Below the pieces are notes generated by a model. The model did no database searches. It worked only from the letters and a program-made list of their open reading frames with translations, and was not told where the DNA came from. Position numbers and translations under genes: made by a program. Below, piece by piece: positions 2,101-23,116 of a stretch of DNA of 27,646 bases. This DNA comes from a virus, in the IMG/VR virus record IMGVR_UViG_3300035698_008439, positions 1 to 27,646 of that record; one strand, written 5' to 3'. The number at the start of each line of letters is the position of its first letter. Position 1 is the stretch's first letter.

Positions 2101-4652
2101 TAAAATTCTCCCATTTGTTTCTTTCCTCTTTTATTGGCTTGTCTAATTGCAATATCCCCAATTTGTGTTTGCGTTTCATATAGAGTTGATATGATCTTAT
2201 TTAAAAGTCCATTTTGTGATCTTAATAGATTATCACGTTCTGATACTTGACCGATTGATCTTACATCAACTTCTTCCCCACCACCTGCATAGAAACCAAC
2301 TGAATCCATAGGAAGATTTGAAGGGATTTGATAACCCGAAACACCCGTAGCAAATTCTGGAGCTTGATAACTTGCAAAAGGATTGCCGCCATTACCGATC
2401 ATTGCTGGAAGAGGAAGTCCTCCGAATCCTAAACTTGCTCCACCGGTAGCTCCACCAAAGATCGCTTTGATAGCCATTAAGATTCCCTTACTTAATAGTT
2501 GTTTAATTAGATATTGAAAGAATCTCTTGGCTTCTAATCTTGCACCCATGAAGACATCCGCTAATTGATCTGCTAACGATGATGCTATAAGGTTTCCTAT
2601 TTCCCTTAACCCTTGTTCCATCATTGACATCGTATCTTTTCCGCTTTTATTAAATTTCTTCATTCCCTTAGTAGCTTGTTCAATAGATTTCCCAATACTA
2701 TCCCAGATGTTTTTTGTAGTTGTTCCTAATCGATTATCTTCACCACCCCCGGGAACTATTTCACCGGTTGCAGCTTGACCAGGTTTTGTGGCATCTTTTA
2801 CTTTTTTAAGAGCAATCGCAACTGCCCTTAATTCTATTGCTAAATTATGTGCTTTTATTATACCTATACCAAATTCTTCATGCAGTTGTTTACTTATTTC
2901 ATTAGTTGATTGGGATATATCAAAATATTCGACTAATGCTAACATCGCCCCATCTGTTTTTTTAGTATAGTCACTTAATGCTTTTGAGTTTTTTCTTTGT
3001 TCACTATTAACCGACCTTAAAGCTTCCATAAGATCGTCTTTTAATAATTTAATGTGTGTTCGTAATACTCCTTGTTGAGTTTTAAATACATTCGATTTTT
3101 CTAATTCACCTAATTGTCTTTGATAATTTGCTAATTCTATTTTAATATTTTCTACATCACCTTTTGCATTTCTTAATCTTTTACTAGATGATTCTACTGC
3201 TTTACCATATTTATAATAAGCATCAATAGTCTCGTTTATTGCTTTTTTGTGTTTTGATCTAATCCATTGAAGCTCTGCCTGGTATAACTCTTTTACCCTA
3301 CCAGTATTAATTGCAATAGCTTTACCATATTTATTGACTTCACTAATTGCACCTGGAACTATCTCAGCTATTTTCGCAATTGCTATATTTAACTTTTCTT
3401 GCTCATCTTTACTTAATTCCACTTTTGTTTTTAAAGTTTCATATTCAGTTACATAATTATCTAATTCTATACCTTTTTCTTCAAATCTTTTTAACTCTCT
3501 TGAAAGTTTTGCTAAATTTTCACTTGGGAGAGTAAACAGTTTGGATAGTTTATCTGCAAGCACACTGCCAATGGTTCTTACAAAGGCATCCAATTTCTTC
3601 ATTATGATTCCGATTTGTTCAGAAAAAGCAGCTAGTTGTTTATCAGCAACTTCTTGAGCTGTTCCACCAGAATTTCTTAATTGTTTAGAGAATTCCTCAA
3701 GCCCTTCTGCACCCTGGTATACAAGCTCTGTCATACCCGTAATAGCTCTTGCACCAAATATCATCTTTAATGCCATATTTCTTTCTTCTTCACTTACTTT
3801 GTTTAATTTAGGTGCGAGTTCACCTAAAATTGCTTTAAAGGATTTCATTTTGCCTGTTGCTTTATCATATACATCTACATATTTATCTATAGACTTTCTG
3901 ACTTCTGAAGTTGGTGCAGATAAATTTATTAATGCTCTTCTTAATGATGTACCAGCCATAGAGCCCTTAATACCAACATTTGCCATTAATCCTATGACCG
4001 CTACAGTGTCTTCAAGACTATTATTAGTATTTCTTGCAATACCAGAAACATAGCTCATCGTTTCACCAAGTTGGTCAAGTGTCATATTAGCTGAAATAAA
4101 CCCTTTTACCAACACATCTACAACTTTCCCACTTTCCGTAAATGGGATTTTGAATCCCTTCATTGTATCAACTAATATCTCTGAAGATTTACCCATCTCC
4201 ATAACACCAGCTTTTGCAAGTAATGCAGTGGATCCAAATGATTGCATCTGTTGTGTTGCACTTAGACCTGCTGATCCTAAGAAATAGAAAGCTTTAGCCG
4301 CTTTATCTGCTGCTACATTAAGACTAATAGATGTTTGTTCTGCCATTTTTGACATTTTATTGAATTGATCTTCTGTAACTTTCGATACAGCCGTTGATTG
4401 TCTCATCGACTGATCAAACTTAGCAAACCGTGCAACACTTACAGCAGACATGGCAGCAACAGTAACGCCAATACCAGTAATAACCTTTCCCACTTTTTTG
4501 AACGCTGCGGAGTTACCCATCATTTTAGCTTGGACATGATTAGAGAATTGTGTTACTTGTGCAGAAGCCTTTCTTAATCCTACAGTCAGTCCAGACGTAT
4601 TAGCCGTTACAATTGCAACTAATCTACCTGCGCTTATTCCTGGTAATGCCAT
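2100..4652 (-). CDS. Tail tape measure protein (850 aa)
   Basis: This is the largest complete gene here and has the TP901/PhageMin_Tail type tape measure core: residues ~76-330 include FDQSMRQSTAVSKV, AAKAFYFLGSAGLSA and LLAKAGVMEMG, followed by helical coiled-coil-like sequence (~380-600). Hydrophobic stretches lie at ~56-75 and in the glycine-rich region ~720-770, as is usual in proteins that may also form a DNA channel in the host membrane. In this family length sets tail length; at about 0.15 nm per residue, 850 residues suggest a tail near 125 nm. A GGAG ribosome binding site lies about 8 bases before the ATG. The gene follows the tail assembly chaperone locus and overlaps the tail-tip gene by one base, the standard siphovirus order. 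Confidence 0.95.
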   Translation of the reverse strand: MALPGISAGRLVAIVTANTSGLTVGLRKASAQVTQFSNHVQAKMMGNSAAFKKVGKVITGIGVTVAAMSAVSVARFAKFDQSMRQSTAVSKVTEDQFNKMSKMAEQTSISLNVAADKAAKAFYFLGSAGLSATQQMQSFGSTALLAKAGVMEMGKSSEILVDTMKGFKIPFTESGKVVDVLVKGFISANMTLDQLGETMSYVSGIARNTNNSLEDTVAVIGLMANVGIKGSMAGTSLRRALINLSAPTSEVRKSIDKYVDVYDKATGKMKSFKAILGELAPKLNKVSEEERNMALKMIFGARAITGMTELVYQGAEGLEEFSKQLRNSGGTAQEVADKQLAAFSEQIGIIMKKLDAFVRTIGSVLADKLSKLFTLPSENLAKLSRELKRFEEKGIELDNYVTEYETLKTKVELSKDEQEKLNIAIAKIAEIVPGAISEVNKYGKAIAINTGRVKELYQAELQWIRSKHKKAINETIDAYYKYGKAVESSSKRLRNAKGDVENIKIELANYQRQLGELEKSNVFKTQQGVLRTHIKLLKDDLMEALRSVNSEQRKNSKALSDYTKKTDGAMLALVEYFDISQSTNEISKQLHEEFGIGIIKAHNLAIELRAVAIALKKVKDATKPGQAATGEIVPGGGEDNRLGTTTKNIWDSIGKSIEQATKGMKKFNKSGKDTMSMMEQGLREIGNLIASSLADQLADVFMGARLEAKRFFQYLIKQLLSKGILMAIKAIFGGATGGASLGFGGLPLPAMIGNGGNPFASYQAPEFATGVSGYQIPSNLPMDSVGFYAGGGEEVDVRSIGQVSERDNLLRSQNGLLNKIISTLYETQTQIGDIAIRQANKRGKKQMGEF

Positions 4653-4894
4653 TATTTAATCTCCAATACTCTTTGTTTTTTAAAGAACTTAGAAGGATTC
4701 GGACATCCGGCTTTATACCAAGCATCCATCTCATTCTTAGTTACCTTAAATGATGGGAAGTTTTTTATAGCTTTTAATGGATCTTTATTAGGTTTACTCG
4801 GTTCTTTAATTTTAAAGTAACTGAATAAAACCTTCTTGATTATGGTTAGAGAAACATCAGCTGATAAAATATCCTTCCGCCATTCTCCTATTTC
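4652..4894 (-). other. 80-codon open continuation after an in-frame TAA in the chaperone extension
   Basis: Downstream of the TAA at 4895-4897 the same reading frame as the chaperone extension stays open for 80 codons, then ends in a TAA overlapping the tape measure ATG (TAATG). It has no ATG, GTG or TTG with a ribosome binding site near its beginning; the first in-frame ATG is some 25 codons from the end. The translation is protein-like (EIGEWRKDILSADVSL at the start, AWYKAGCPNPSKFF near the end). With it the extension would be about 118 residues, near the size of lambda gpT (144 aa). It is either the broken or mis-sequenced second half of the T domain or is reached by stop-codon readthrough. 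No function can be given to it alone. Confidence 0.55.
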
Positions 4895-5331
4895 TTAGAT
4901 AGCTTCAAAGAAATCATCAAGATCCATCCTCCCTATTATCTCGTAACTCCAGCCATATTCTCTGGCAAGAATTCCGAATAACTTCTTCCACTCTATTGGT
5001 TTTTCTACTTTCCCGGCTCTTCTGTTTCTTCAGTTAATCCCTCAGGTTCGGGAAATATCTTTGATGCATTTGCTAATGCTGTAAATATAGACATATTTTT
5101 ATCTGGATCTATATCAATTGCATTTAGCATTTCCTCTCTAGTTAAATTATTGTCTTGGCAGACCAAAATCAATAATAGATTAATTTGACCTTTAATGTCT
5201 TGAGTCTTTTTTTCATATACTGTTCCTATCTTGCTAATTGATACACCAAAAAACTTTTCCAATTCAATCCATGTTTTGGTTAAGATCTTATTACTAATCT
5301 CGATTCCTTTACATACTTTAATCATTTTCAT
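4895..5331 (-). CDS. Tail assembly chaperone, -1 frameshift product (gpGT-like)
   Basis: Ribosomes that slip -1 on GGGAAAG (5014-5008) replace the immediate TAG with 37 more codons, giving a ~145-residue product. The added segment begins VEKPIEWKKLFGILAREYGW and ends at TAA 4895-4897. It has the look of known second-frame chaperone domains: a conserved Trp, then G-x-L-A-x-x-Y-G-W and an acidic helix. In lambda the G/GT pair binds the tape measure and tail tube proteins before assembly and is absent from the virion. Position between tail tube and tape measure genes supports the same role. What is seen: heptamer, alternative frame, motif. What is inferred: that slippage occurs. The TAA that ends it early is odd and is treated as a finding. 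Confidence 0.75.
5005..5331 (-). CDS. Tail assembly chaperone, short form (gpG-like, 108 aa)
   Basis: An ATG at 5331 preceded by AAGGAG opens a 108-codon gene ending in TAG at 5005-5007. It lies just before the tape measure and after the tail tube gene, the standard place of the tail chaperone. The protein is mostly alpha-helical in appearance (GIEISNKILTKTWIELEKFF; NNLTREEMLNAIDIDPDKNM) with an acidic tail ending EEPGK, and the last two sense codons lie in the slippery sequence GGGAAAG. Its likely role is to keep the tape measure protein soluble and bring tail tube subunits to it in the cytoplasm. The start overlaps the preceding 48-codon gene by 14 bases. Sequence similarity alone is weak; the context and slip site carry the call. 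Confidence 0.82.
   Translation of the reverse strand: MKMIKVCKGIEISNKILTKTWIELEKFFGVSISKIGTVYEKKTQDIKGQINLLLILVCQDNNLTREEMLNAIDIDPDKNMSIFTALANASKIFPEPEGLTEETEEPGK
5008..5014 (-). other. Slippery heptamer GGGAAAG for -1 programmed frameshift
   Basis: On the minus strand the codons read CCG GGA AAG TAG. The heptamer G-GGA-AAG fits X-XXY-YYZ and is identical to the slip site of the lambda G/T genes. Both tRNAs can re-pair at GGG AAA after a one-base backward slip, and the next zero-frame codon is a stop, which favours pausing. The new frame continues 37 codons with chaperone-like sequence. Confidence 0.85.
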
Positions 5332-5464
5332 TTTTACTCTCCTTGTTTATTTTGTTTAAGATCATTTCTGCTCCTGCGATAAATGCAGTATGTGACTCAG
5401 CATAAATATTATTATCTACAAATTTTGTTGCCATTTCTTCTAATTCTTCATCACTAATTTTCAT
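5318..5464 (-). CDS. Small phage protein, unknown function (48 aa)
   Basis: This short gene opens with ATG at 5464, eight bases after AAGGAG, and ends with TAA at 5318-5320, overlapping the chaperone start by 14 bases. The protein begins MKISDEELEEMATKFVDN and has an acidic helix followed by HTAFIAGAEMILNKI; short phage proteins with an xFIAGAEx segment are common but of unknown role. Its own ribosome binding site, the tight overlap and the sensible amino acid make-up support a real gene. The place between tail tube and chaperone genes may suggest a minor tail assembly role, but that is a guess. Confidence 0.72.
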   Translation of the reverse strand: MKISDEELEEMATKFVDNNIYAESHTAFIAGAEMILNKINKESKNEND

Positions 5465-5523: not shown

Positions 5524-6075
5524 CTATAGTACTTGACGTGCTACAAAACCGATTTGATCTCCAGCATCTCTTGTATCTACTGCCAGAGCTTTAAATTCAA
5601 TATCCTGCAATGTTACATCTTCCTCTTTAAATGGTAATGTCCAATTACATGAAGGATAACAGGAATATAAAATTATAATAACCTTATTACTTGTTCCTGG
5701 TATTGTATGTTCAAATCTCAATGAAGTTGTATTAACTGTCTTTGATCCACCGAACTTCATTATATCAAAACTTCCAGATCCTTCTACATAAGAAGTTGGA
5801 TCATAAGCTGGCCAAGATGAAGAACTTAATGCTGAATCCGTAACTCCTAATGCGATCTTGAAATTAGCTGTTGAGATCTCAGCTATTGTTGCTTTCAAGC
5901 TTGCTGACTCTCCAAATCTGAAAACCTTGATTGTTCCCAAGGATAATTGAGACTTATATTCTTTCAATTCTCCAACATAATTAAATTCGACATCGCCTTT
6001 AAGTGATCCTACATTGACATTATTCAGATATAGATCACCACCACCAAGTGTAAGATTTCCTAATTCTGCGCCCAT
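5524..6075 (-). CDS. Major tail tube protein (183 aa)
   Basis: The ATG at 6075 follows AGGAGG closely. The N-terminus (GNLTLGGGDLYLNNVNVG, then LKGDVEFNY) is the pattern of tail tube subunits in this sort of siphovirus: G-x-G-x-h-Y-h-N-x-x-x-V-G-x-L-x-G-x-V-x-F. The rest is beta-rich, as expected for the tube fold that stacks in hexameric rings around the tape measure. The length is normal for the family. It lies between the connector/modification genes and the tail chaperone, and is followed by a stable hairpin (5485-5515), which fits a highly expressed structural gene. The C-terminus has two cysteines (YSCYPSCNW) of unknown importance. Confidence 0.88.
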   Translation of the reverse strand: MGAELGNLTLGGGDLYLNNVNVGSLKGDVEFNYVGELKEYKSQLSLGTIKVFRFGESASLKATIAEISTANFKIALGVTDSALSSSSWPAYDPTSYVEGSGSFDIMKFGGSKTVNTTSLRFEHTIPGTSNKVIIILYSCYPSCNWTLPFKEEDVTLQDIEFKALAVDTRDAGDQIGFVARQVL

Positions 6076-6083
6076 TGTTCCTC

Positions 6084-6968
6084 CTATTTAATTGCTAAAG
6101 AAAAGACTTCATCATATCTTTTTGTAATCTCAACTATATTATGATGATTCTCAGCAAACTTTCTTCCATTAATTGATAAGATCTTTTGTAAACTCTTATC
6201 ATTCATCAGTAATTTTATTTTTTTGATAACATCGATTATTTCTCTTTTAATGAAAAGAACGTTCTCTCCGTCTGTTAAGTTTTCTCCATGATAACCAACC
6301 TTGGTTGAAATCACGGGAACTCCGCAAGCCAATGCCTCCATTGTGACATTAGAACATCCTTCTGCCATAGATGGTAATATTAAGCAGTCTATGCGATTAT
6401 AAAAATCAAGGCTCATTCTATCATGTGGTATCTGAGAATGCCCGTATAAACATTCAATATGATCGGTTATTGGTAATAAGGTCAACATCGCTTGATCATA
6501 TAATAACCACCCTTTATAATCAAGACCTCTTCCATAAATATTTCCAGCAAATCCCAAAGTAAATCTTCTTTCTTTTTTCGGATAAGGTTTGAAGACTTCA
6601 AGATCTAATCCATTTGGAATTTGAAACGCATTATCATTAACTTTAACAGCTACATCATAAAGTTGTTTATTTGTTGAGATAATCGCTGCACAATCAGCTA
6701 AAGGATTATCATATCGAGTACTTGGATTCTCATCATTTATTAACATTCCACCCATCCTACATACCACCTTACTTTTATCTTTAATTTGTTTTAAACTATC
6801 AACATTCTGTATTAGGGCCAGATCAAAAAAGTTTACGAGATCTTCATCCAGTTCACATCCCGGAATCCTTTGAACTCTAACAAATCGATGATCTGAATTC
6901 TCAGTCATATCCTTCAGAGCAAATGCCCAGCTCCAATCTTTACAATTCTCATAACTTAATATATTCAT
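6084..6968 (-). CDS. GT4-family glycosyltransferase (294 aa)
   Basis: The C-terminal half is a clear GT-B fold sugar transferase domain: FTLGFAGNIYGRGLDYKG (residues ~136-153) and RIDCLILPSMAEGCSNVTME followed by ALACGVPVIST (~192-222), with the E-x7-E pair at E203 and E211 that binds the nucleotide-sugar. The N-terminal Rossmann half is compact (NILSYENCKDW at the start, IPNGLDLEVFKP at the domain boundary). I place the start at ATG 6968, which overlaps the TGA of the preceding gene (ATGA), rather than the upstream TTG at 6977. Sugar donor and acceptor cannot be read from sequence. It sits in the tail module with a methyltransferase gene, so targets may be virion proteins or host surface sugars. 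Family call is secure; role is inference. Confidence 0.92.
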   Translation of the reverse strand: MNILSYENCKDWSWAFALKDMTENSDHRFVRVQRIPGCELDEDLVNFFDLALIQNVDSLKQIKDKSKVVCRMGGMLINDENPSTRYDNPLADCAAIISTNKQLYDVAVKVNDNAFQIPNGLDLEVFKPYPKKERRFTLGFAGNIYGRGLDYKGWLLYDQAMLTLLPITDHIECLYGHSQIPHDRMSLDFYNRIDCLILPSMAEGCSNVTMEALACGVPVISTKVGYHGENLTDGENVLFIKREIIDVIKKIKLLMNDKSLQKILSINGRKFAENHHNIVEITKRYDEVFSLAIK

Positions 6969-7243
6969 CTCGCCCAATCCGTTAATGTTCTATGGCTTGC
7001 AAATAATGTTACCACCTTTGGGATATCCTCATTCCTGATTAATAATTGAAAACATCTTGGATTCTGAGCAATTATAAGGTCAGCATTTTCTTTGACAATC
7101 ATATCGGCTACCATCTCTTGAGAAAGTCCTGATGTTAAGATCTGAATATGATCAAAGATCGAATGCTTCCTGATTCGATTGAATCGGTTATTATACGCCC
7201 AGCCTTCGACATCACTAATCCAAAGTATTTTTTTTATAGACAA
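6965..7243 (-). CDS. Stand-alone N-terminal Rossmann half of a GT-B glycosyltransferase (about 92 aa)
   Basis: The protein reads KKILWISDVEGWAYNNRF early, then ADLIIAQNPRCFQLL and IPKVVTLFASHRTL, and stops. This resembles the first domain of GT4-type enzymes, and is similar in pattern to the N-terminus of the next gene, which reads DLALIQNVDSL and KSKVVCRMGG at matching places. The catalytic nucleotide-sugar domain is absent, so it cannot be a complete transferase. Start choice: TTG at 7243 has AAGGGA at good distance and gives the expected short N-terminus; ATG at 7261 is possible but has a poorer site. The gene overlaps the methyltransferase 3' end and overlaps the next gene by ATGA. It may be a duplication remnant or a partner subunit. 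Confidence 0.65.
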   Translation of the reverse strand: MSIKKILWISDVEGWAYNNRFNRIRKHSIFDHIQILTSGLSQEMVADMIVKENADLIIAQNPRCFQLLIRNEDIPKVVTLFASHRTLTDWAR

Positions 7244-7823
7244 GATAAATCCCTTTCTCATATCTTTGATAGTTGAGTTCAATCTGTTTACTGATCAATT
7301 CAAGTTCTTTGAATTCCTCGAGGATCTGCTCTTCGGTTCTAATTACAACATGAGCAGGTTTCGGCTTTGATCTAAGAGGAAGATAGAAGAAAAGAAGTCC
7401 ACCAGGTTTTAATATCCTGATAAGTTCTTTCTGTCCTTGAATAAAATGATCATCATTGAGTGCATGATCGAGAACTTCCCAAGAAAAGACTACCCCCATA
7501 GAATTTTCCTGTAGTTCTGTATCAGAAAAATCCTTATCGAATGACCATAATCCTTCCGGTAATTTACCAATATTACCAAATTCATTAATTAGTAAATCTA
7601 CTATTACTCTATCTTTTCCATAAGGAAATAATGCCAACGCTCCGCCCATTACTCCTGCTCCAATATCACATACTGATTCGATATTTTTAAAGGCTCCAAA
7701 GTGCTTCCGGCATACTTTCTTAACTTCAAACATTTCAAATCGATGTCTTAATTTCTCCAGATAGAATTCATCATCGTGAGATGTCATGTATCGGAGTGCA
7801 AATTCACGAGTCCAGTTTTTCAT
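7215..7823 (-). CDS. Class I SAM-dependent methyltransferase (202 aa)
   Basis: Motif I is ESVCDIGAGVMGGALALFP (residues ~49-67, D53 and the glycines contacting SAM), an acidic residue ending strand beta-2 is D76, and the post-motif region FSWEVLDHALNDD followed by LIRILKPGGLLFFYLP (~113-149) is typical of the Methyltransf_11 group. ATG at 7823 is chosen because GGAG lies just upstream; longer forms from 7844 lack a site. The 3' end overlaps the glycosyltransferase-like gene. The acceptor is unknown. Linked glycosyltransferases suggest methylation of a sugar or a modified protein, but small-molecule or DNA targets are not excluded (no N-P-P-Y/W motif of DNA adenine enzymes is present). Confidence 0.88.
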   Translation of the reverse strand: MKNWTREFALRYMTSHDDEFYLEKLRHRFEMFEVKKVCRKHFGAFKNIESVCDIGAGVMGGALALFPYGKDRVIVDLLINEFGNIGKLPEGLWSFDKDFSDTELQENSMGVVFSWEVLDHALNDDHFIQGQKELIRILKPGGLLFFYLPLRSKPKPAHVVIRTEEQILEEFKELELISKQIELNYQRYEKGIYLVYKKNTLD

Positions 7824-8064
7824 ATCGTCTCCTTGCTTCATCATGAAACTTTATAAATTCATCGGTTGGGATAATGGCAATACTTAACTTCCCTTTTCTT
7901 TCAGTTTTGACTTCAAAGAGATCTCCTGGAAGATTATCAAATAATCGACAATAACCAGAAATCCATTGAGCTAATCCTTTGATAGTTGACCAAAAGATCA
8001 TATCATCAATGAGATCTCTTACTTTACTCATATCAACATTAAGCGAAACTTCACATTTAGCCAT
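7804..8064 (-). CDS. Hypothetical protein (86 aa)
   Basis: I do not recognise this protein. It begins MAKCEVSLNVDMSKVRDLID, has a central aromatic stretch (FWSTIKGLAQWISGYCRLF) that could be an amphipathic helix, and ends with a charged helix containing EARRRYEKL. The ATG at 8064 follows AAGGAA closely, and the 3' end overlaps the methyltransferase start by 20 bases. It is the first gene after the tail terminator-like gene, so it could be either a small tail protein or part of the modification cassette. Confidence 0.75.
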   Translation of the reverse strand: MAKCEVSLNVDMSKVRDLIDDMIFWSTIKGLAQWISGYCRLFDNLPGDLFEVKTERKGKLSIAIIPTDEFIKFHDEARRRYEKLDS

Positions 8065-22648: not shown

Positions 22649-23116
22649 ATGAAAAAAGAAGATTTGAAAGTTGTGATAGATCTACATCTGAAATGGCTAA
22701 ATCATGATATTAATGGTAATCGTGCTAATCTACGTGATGTTGATCTACGTCGTGCTGATCTACGTGATGTTAATCTATGTGGCGCTGATCTACGTCGTGC
22801 TGATCTACGTGATGTTGATCTACGTCGTGCTGATCTACGTGGCGCTGATCTACGTCGTGCTGATCTACGTCGTGCTGATCTACGTGGCGCTGATCTCGAT
22901 TTCGGTTGCTTTCCTTTATGGTGCGGATCGTTCAATATTAAAGTTGGTGATAGATTTATATTTCAATTATTATTTCACCTATTGAAATTGGATTACGTTG
23001 GTAAAAATCCACTAATCAAAAGAATGATGAAAATGGAATCATTGATAAAATTAGCAAATAAATCTCATCTAATAGATAATCATAAGGTTAAAAAAATACA
23101 AGGAGAAGTAAAATGA
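22649..23116 (+). CDS. Pentapeptide-repeat protein (155 aa)
   Basis: After an N-terminal helix ([15 protein letters not shown]) come twelve pentapeptides of A[D/N]LRx type ([15 protein letters not shown]), which fold as a right-handed square helix. A C-terminal domain begins [12 protein letters not shown], then [13 protein letters not shown]; phage pentapeptide proteins with this N- and C-terminal pair are common, function unknown. Some pentapeptide proteins mimic DNA and block gyrase; here the repeat surface is Arg-rich rather than acidic, so DNA mimicry is unlikely. AAGGAG precedes the ATG. The end overlaps ssb by ATGA. Confidence 0.88.
22721..22900 (+). repeat. Twelve-unit 15-base tandem repeat encoding the pentapeptides
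   Basis: Twelve units of 15 bases follow one another without interruption, most reading GATCTACGT plus CGTGCT, GATGTT or GGCGCT. The units are nearly identical at DNA level, including third positions, so they arose by recent duplication or are kept alike by slippage or conversion. Copy number is likely to vary among relatives. Confidence 0.93.

Follow-up and report, generated by a model that had tools for sequence, protein, structure and literature searches.

The window analyzed here, the whole 27,646 bases of the IMG/VR viral contig IMGVR_UViG_3300035698_008439, very probably encodes an ordinary lambda-type G-T tail assembly chaperone pair whose T domain has been broken by a recent nonsense change or by a base error in the contig. 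We found that the T frame, which is interrupted by an in-frame TAA and then stays open up to the tape measure gene, is homologous on both sides of the TAA to the T of two related viral contigs, where T is one uninterrupted ORF that lies at -1 relative to G and reaches the tape measure start. We class the G-T of the window as a broken or mis-sequenced copy of a lambda-type G-T chaperone, not an intact member. The two relatives are IMGVR_UViG_3300033153_011566 (L003), found via the tape measure protein (49% identity over the first 350 residues), and IMGVR_UViG_3300033141_001751 (L018), found via a tail-protein alignment (48%).

Organization of the tail region

Tail and head genes are carried on the minus strand of the window, in a gene map that is tight except for a gap at T. 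The features considered here are the following.

5524-6075, minus strand: major tail protein, Ig-type (phrog_2175, E 3e-8; phrog_807, E 0.002)
5005-5331, minus strand: ORF G, tail assembly chaperone (gpG-like), 108 aa, ending in TAG; assigned by position and weak similarity
5008-5014, minus strand: slippery heptamer G GGA AAG (X XXY YYZ), putative -1 frameshift site, read from the sequence
4935-4982, minus strand: predicted RNA stem-loop 3' of the slip site (fold of 4925-5012, -18.2 kcal/mol)
4898-5017, minus strand: first part of the T domain, in the -1 frame (AGKVEKPIEWKKLFGILAREYGWSYEIIGRMDLDDFFEAI); homologous to the T of L003 and L018
4895-4897, minus strand: in-frame TAA within the T domain, aligned to AAC (Asn) in L003 and CGA (Arg) in L018
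4652-4894, minus strand: second part of the T domain, 80 open codons to the TAA at 4654-4652; homologous to the T of L003 and L018
2100-4652, minus strand: tape measure protein (PHROG tape measure families, best E 1e-71; Pfam PhageMin_Tail, E 1.6e-42)

The major tail protein is 42-48% identical to its counterparts in the two relatives, and all three contigs share the gene order, which in both L003 and L018 runs glycosyltransferase, major tail protein, G, T and tape measure. In the window, head-tail genes and the major tail protein gene are separated by a minus-strand region (6084-7844) that encodes a glycosyltransferase and a methyltransferase, together with a short ORF similar to the N-terminal half of a glycosyltransferase; in both relatives, too, the glycosyltransferase adjoins the major tail protein. 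Elsewhere in the window, among the early genes, a plus-strand ORF at 22649-23116 encodes a pentapeptide-repeat-like protein with ADLR/DLRR repeats.

ORF G, flanked by the major tail protein and tape measure genes, is weakly similar (23%) to the G ORF at the equivalent position in L003. As expected of a G-T pair, two overlapping frames are present in this interval; ORF G closes with the codons CCG GGA AAG TAG, so that the heptamer lies just before the G stop, and the second ORF is in the -1 frame. GGGAAAG is also the slippery heptamer of lambda. The predicted fold of 4925-5012 (88 nt) is more stable than its shuffles (z -3.0 against 200 shuffles), and its stem-loop begins about 25 nt past the heptamer, farther than is usual for a frameshift stimulator. 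A separate 48-codon ORF (MKISDEELEEMATKFVDNN...) at 5318-5464 on the minus strand overlaps the G start, and a second copy of its ribosome-binding leader, AAGGAGAGTAAAA..ATGAAAAT, precedes G (28 nt, 93%).

This arrangement resembles the lambda G/GT system, which uses a -1 frameshift, in the order of major tail protein, G, -1 T and tape measure, and in a T frame that ends at the tape measure start (reviewed in PMC5009743). Unlike lambda, the window has an internal TAA in T, and neither G nor T gave a significant match to a known chaperone family in Pfam or PHROGs. A weak match of T to phrog_2176 (E 0.02) was set aside; one Nankokuvirus region was inspected and did not look relevant.

The T domain continues across the internal TAA

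Following G in the -1 frame, translation would meet stops at TAA 4897-4895 and TAA 4654-4652, with 80 sense codons between them, and the second of these overlaps the ATG of the tape measure gene (TAATG). The preliminary description had given the same positions, the same number of open codons and the same junction, all of which are exact. An open stretch of 80 codons is expected in 0.09% of first-order Markov sequences with the composition of the region and in 0.25% of those with the composition of the whole minus strand, and the remaining two frames of the stretch are closed many times. It had also been proposed that the stretch has no start codon of its own, and this holds: no ATG, GTG or TTG lies near its beginning, so that a separate gene after the stop was rejected, and the only in-frame ATG (in ...KNEMDAW...) is about 27 codons from the end, too late for a useful separate start. 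An ATG behind an AGGAG at about 4882 was considered and rejected, being out of frame and opening only 8 codons, and a second frameshift near the stop was likewise discarded, since the other frames do not stay open there.

That these 80 codons are, or were, coding sequence is supported far more strongly by homology than by the open frame itself. Taken alone, the post-stop stretch matches the T of L003 at 39% identity (E 1.5e-16, shuffle z 23.4) and the T of L018 at 29% (E 6e-8, shuffle z 8.9), while its other two frames and its reverse complement give a shuffle z of about 0; the earlier impression that it reads like protein is borne out. The pre-stop part is likewise homologous to the T of L003 (E 5e-6) and of L018 (E 5e-4). 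When T from either relative was searched against the window with tblastn, a single alignment ran across the stop (E 4e-19 for L003 and 5e-8 for L018), and L003 T is 32-36% identical to the window on both sides of it. In a three-sequence alignment of the read-through T with the T of L003 and L018, the TAA falls between two conserved parts of a single T domain. Both relatives have a sense codon at this position, AAC in L003 and CGA in L018, and their T ORFs continue without a stop. The preliminary description had named relatives that share the stop, with unrelated DNA downstream, as a refuting result; such relatives were sought, and those found are instead open at this point and homologous downstream. 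Read through from the slip site, T is about 121 residues long, which we take to be roughly the length of lambda gpT. Together, these findings uphold the suggestion that the T domain of a G-T frameshift chaperone has been interrupted.

The relatives also share the -1 relation between G and T. In L003, the overlap contains the slip motif A AAA AAC, read in the G frame. The G-T overlap of L018 (L018:6010-6106) lacks a canonical heptamer, and a GTG start overlaps its G stop (GTGA); so either coupling or a different shift may give rise to T in L018.

A structure prediction with Gln at the stop, as had been suggested, was made with AlphaFold2 on the three-sequence alignment, with residue 41 set to Gln. 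The resulting T model is mostly helical, at low to moderate confidence (mean pLDDT 65), and its helix 33-49 spans the stop position; it agrees with a single T domain, as weak evidence.

Sequence after the stop lacks clear decay

If the interruption were old and the remaining codons unused, the post-stop segment might be expected to have drifted. Its alignment scores are 137 against L003 and 79 against L018, compared with 123 between L003 and L018; the score to L003 exceeds that between the relatives and so no decay is visible. For the pre-stop part, the like-for-like scores are 51 and 45 against 78, and judged by these alignments the sequence after the stop has not clearly decayed in comparison with that before it. 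In a simulation of neutral drift, 24 random changes lowered the score from 123 to 86 and left only one third of frames open, and 6% of single changes in the post-stop codons create a stop. Taken with the lack of clear decay, the simulation suggests that the interruption is recent, or is not real, or that the segment is still translated.

Among the genes with matches in the L003 or L018 contig, T alone has an internal stop (leaving aside the stops in one 55-residue alignment, which involves a spurious ORF lying out of frame within the tape measure gene). Searches of viral_contigs with G and T protein patterns and with a degenerate DNA pattern across the stop gave no close copy of the T region; T had no close relative among annotated phages, and alignments of the tape measure and tail proteins gave no close relative in genome_contigs. 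As these searches yielded no near-identical copy of the region, the ancestral codon in the lineage of the window was not seen.

Origin of the internal TAA

We propose that ribosomes translate G (5331-5005), that a minority of them would shift by -1 on GGGAAAG into the T frame, that this frame originally reached TAA 4654-4652 at the start of the tape measure gene, and that TAA 4897-4895 probably arose recently and interrupted it. The chance that the TAA is real, a nonsense change carried by the virus or prophage that was sampled, is about even. If so, the G-T fusion would stop after about 40 T residues, and the virus would probably be defective or impaired in tail assembly unless the host suppresses the stop; in lambda, the G-T fusion is required for tail assembly (PMC5009743 and references there).

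The other form of the same explanation, to which we give somewhat less than an even chance, is that base calling or assembly introduced the TAA in error and that T is intact in the virus. The lambda requirement just cited favors it, as do the source of the sequence, an IMG/VR viral contig, and the fact that no other copy confirms the base in the searches made; so do the singular position of T as the one broken shared gene and the undecayed state of the post-stop frame. On the other hand, single-base errors are uncommon in an assembled consensus, and the contig otherwise shows no sign of error, with its other shared genes intact and its genes tightly packed.

It is improbable that T is functional in a shortened form that truly ends at this stop, with the downstream 80 codons an unneeded remnant. 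The stretch before the stop, about 40 residues of T with its GW motif, is indeed intact. However, the downstream part is as conserved with respect to L003 as the relatives are among themselves, and the modeled helix crosses the stop position (mean pLDDT 65). A T ended at this TAA would also be the shortest among the relatives examined, in all of which T runs on to the tape measure gene: apart from L003 and L018, the T-like frame, assigned by position and frame, is uninterrupted to the tape measure start in each of seven more distant relatives (L005, L009, L010, L012, L013, L014 and L015).

The preliminary description had offered three options for the TAA. Of these, everything seen is compatible with a nonsense change or a sequencing error, whereas programmed readthrough after a programmed frameshift is without positive evidence and is unlikely, with several observations against it. 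It would require that UAA be read through after the -1 frameshift so that a small fraction of G-T ribosomes make full-length T, and we give this little credence. Constraint after the stop counts against our preferred explanation, as readthrough products would likewise predict it; the frame beyond the stop does remain open and conserved, in register with the frame before it. However, UAA is reported to be the least leaky stop in bacteria, the one with the least readthrough (PMC5289835). Here it is followed by G and by no significant RNA structure, the predicted folds after it being not significantly better than shuffles (z -0.5 for 63 nt and -1.6 for 123 nt). The stop is conserved in neither of the two homologous relatives, and readthrough stacked on frameshifting would be expected to yield very little product. 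Our literature searches returned the standard lambda account (PMC5009743) and no precedent for readthrough in T. A double-recoded chaperone with three nested products (G, G plus short T, and G plus full T) in fixed ratios is correspondingly hard to credit.

Finally, a TAA read as sense in the virus or host, by a variant genetic code or a suppressor tRNA, would account for one in-frame TAA inside an otherwise conserved domain but is already close to refuted, as TAA ends 21 of the 37 genes and is therefore a stop in the window, the contig has no tRNA gene, and internal stops are absent from all other shared genes.

Implications

Readthrough in T, if it were true, would add a second recoding step to one of the best-known frameshift systems. 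With an ordinary G-T pair broken by a nonsense change or a base error as the preferred explanation, the value of the finding as things stand is modest. It illustrates how new biology can be mimicked when a single codon of a metagenomic contig is wrong or mutated, and it puts on record, in uncultivated phages, a divergent family of G-T chaperones whose T domain is long.
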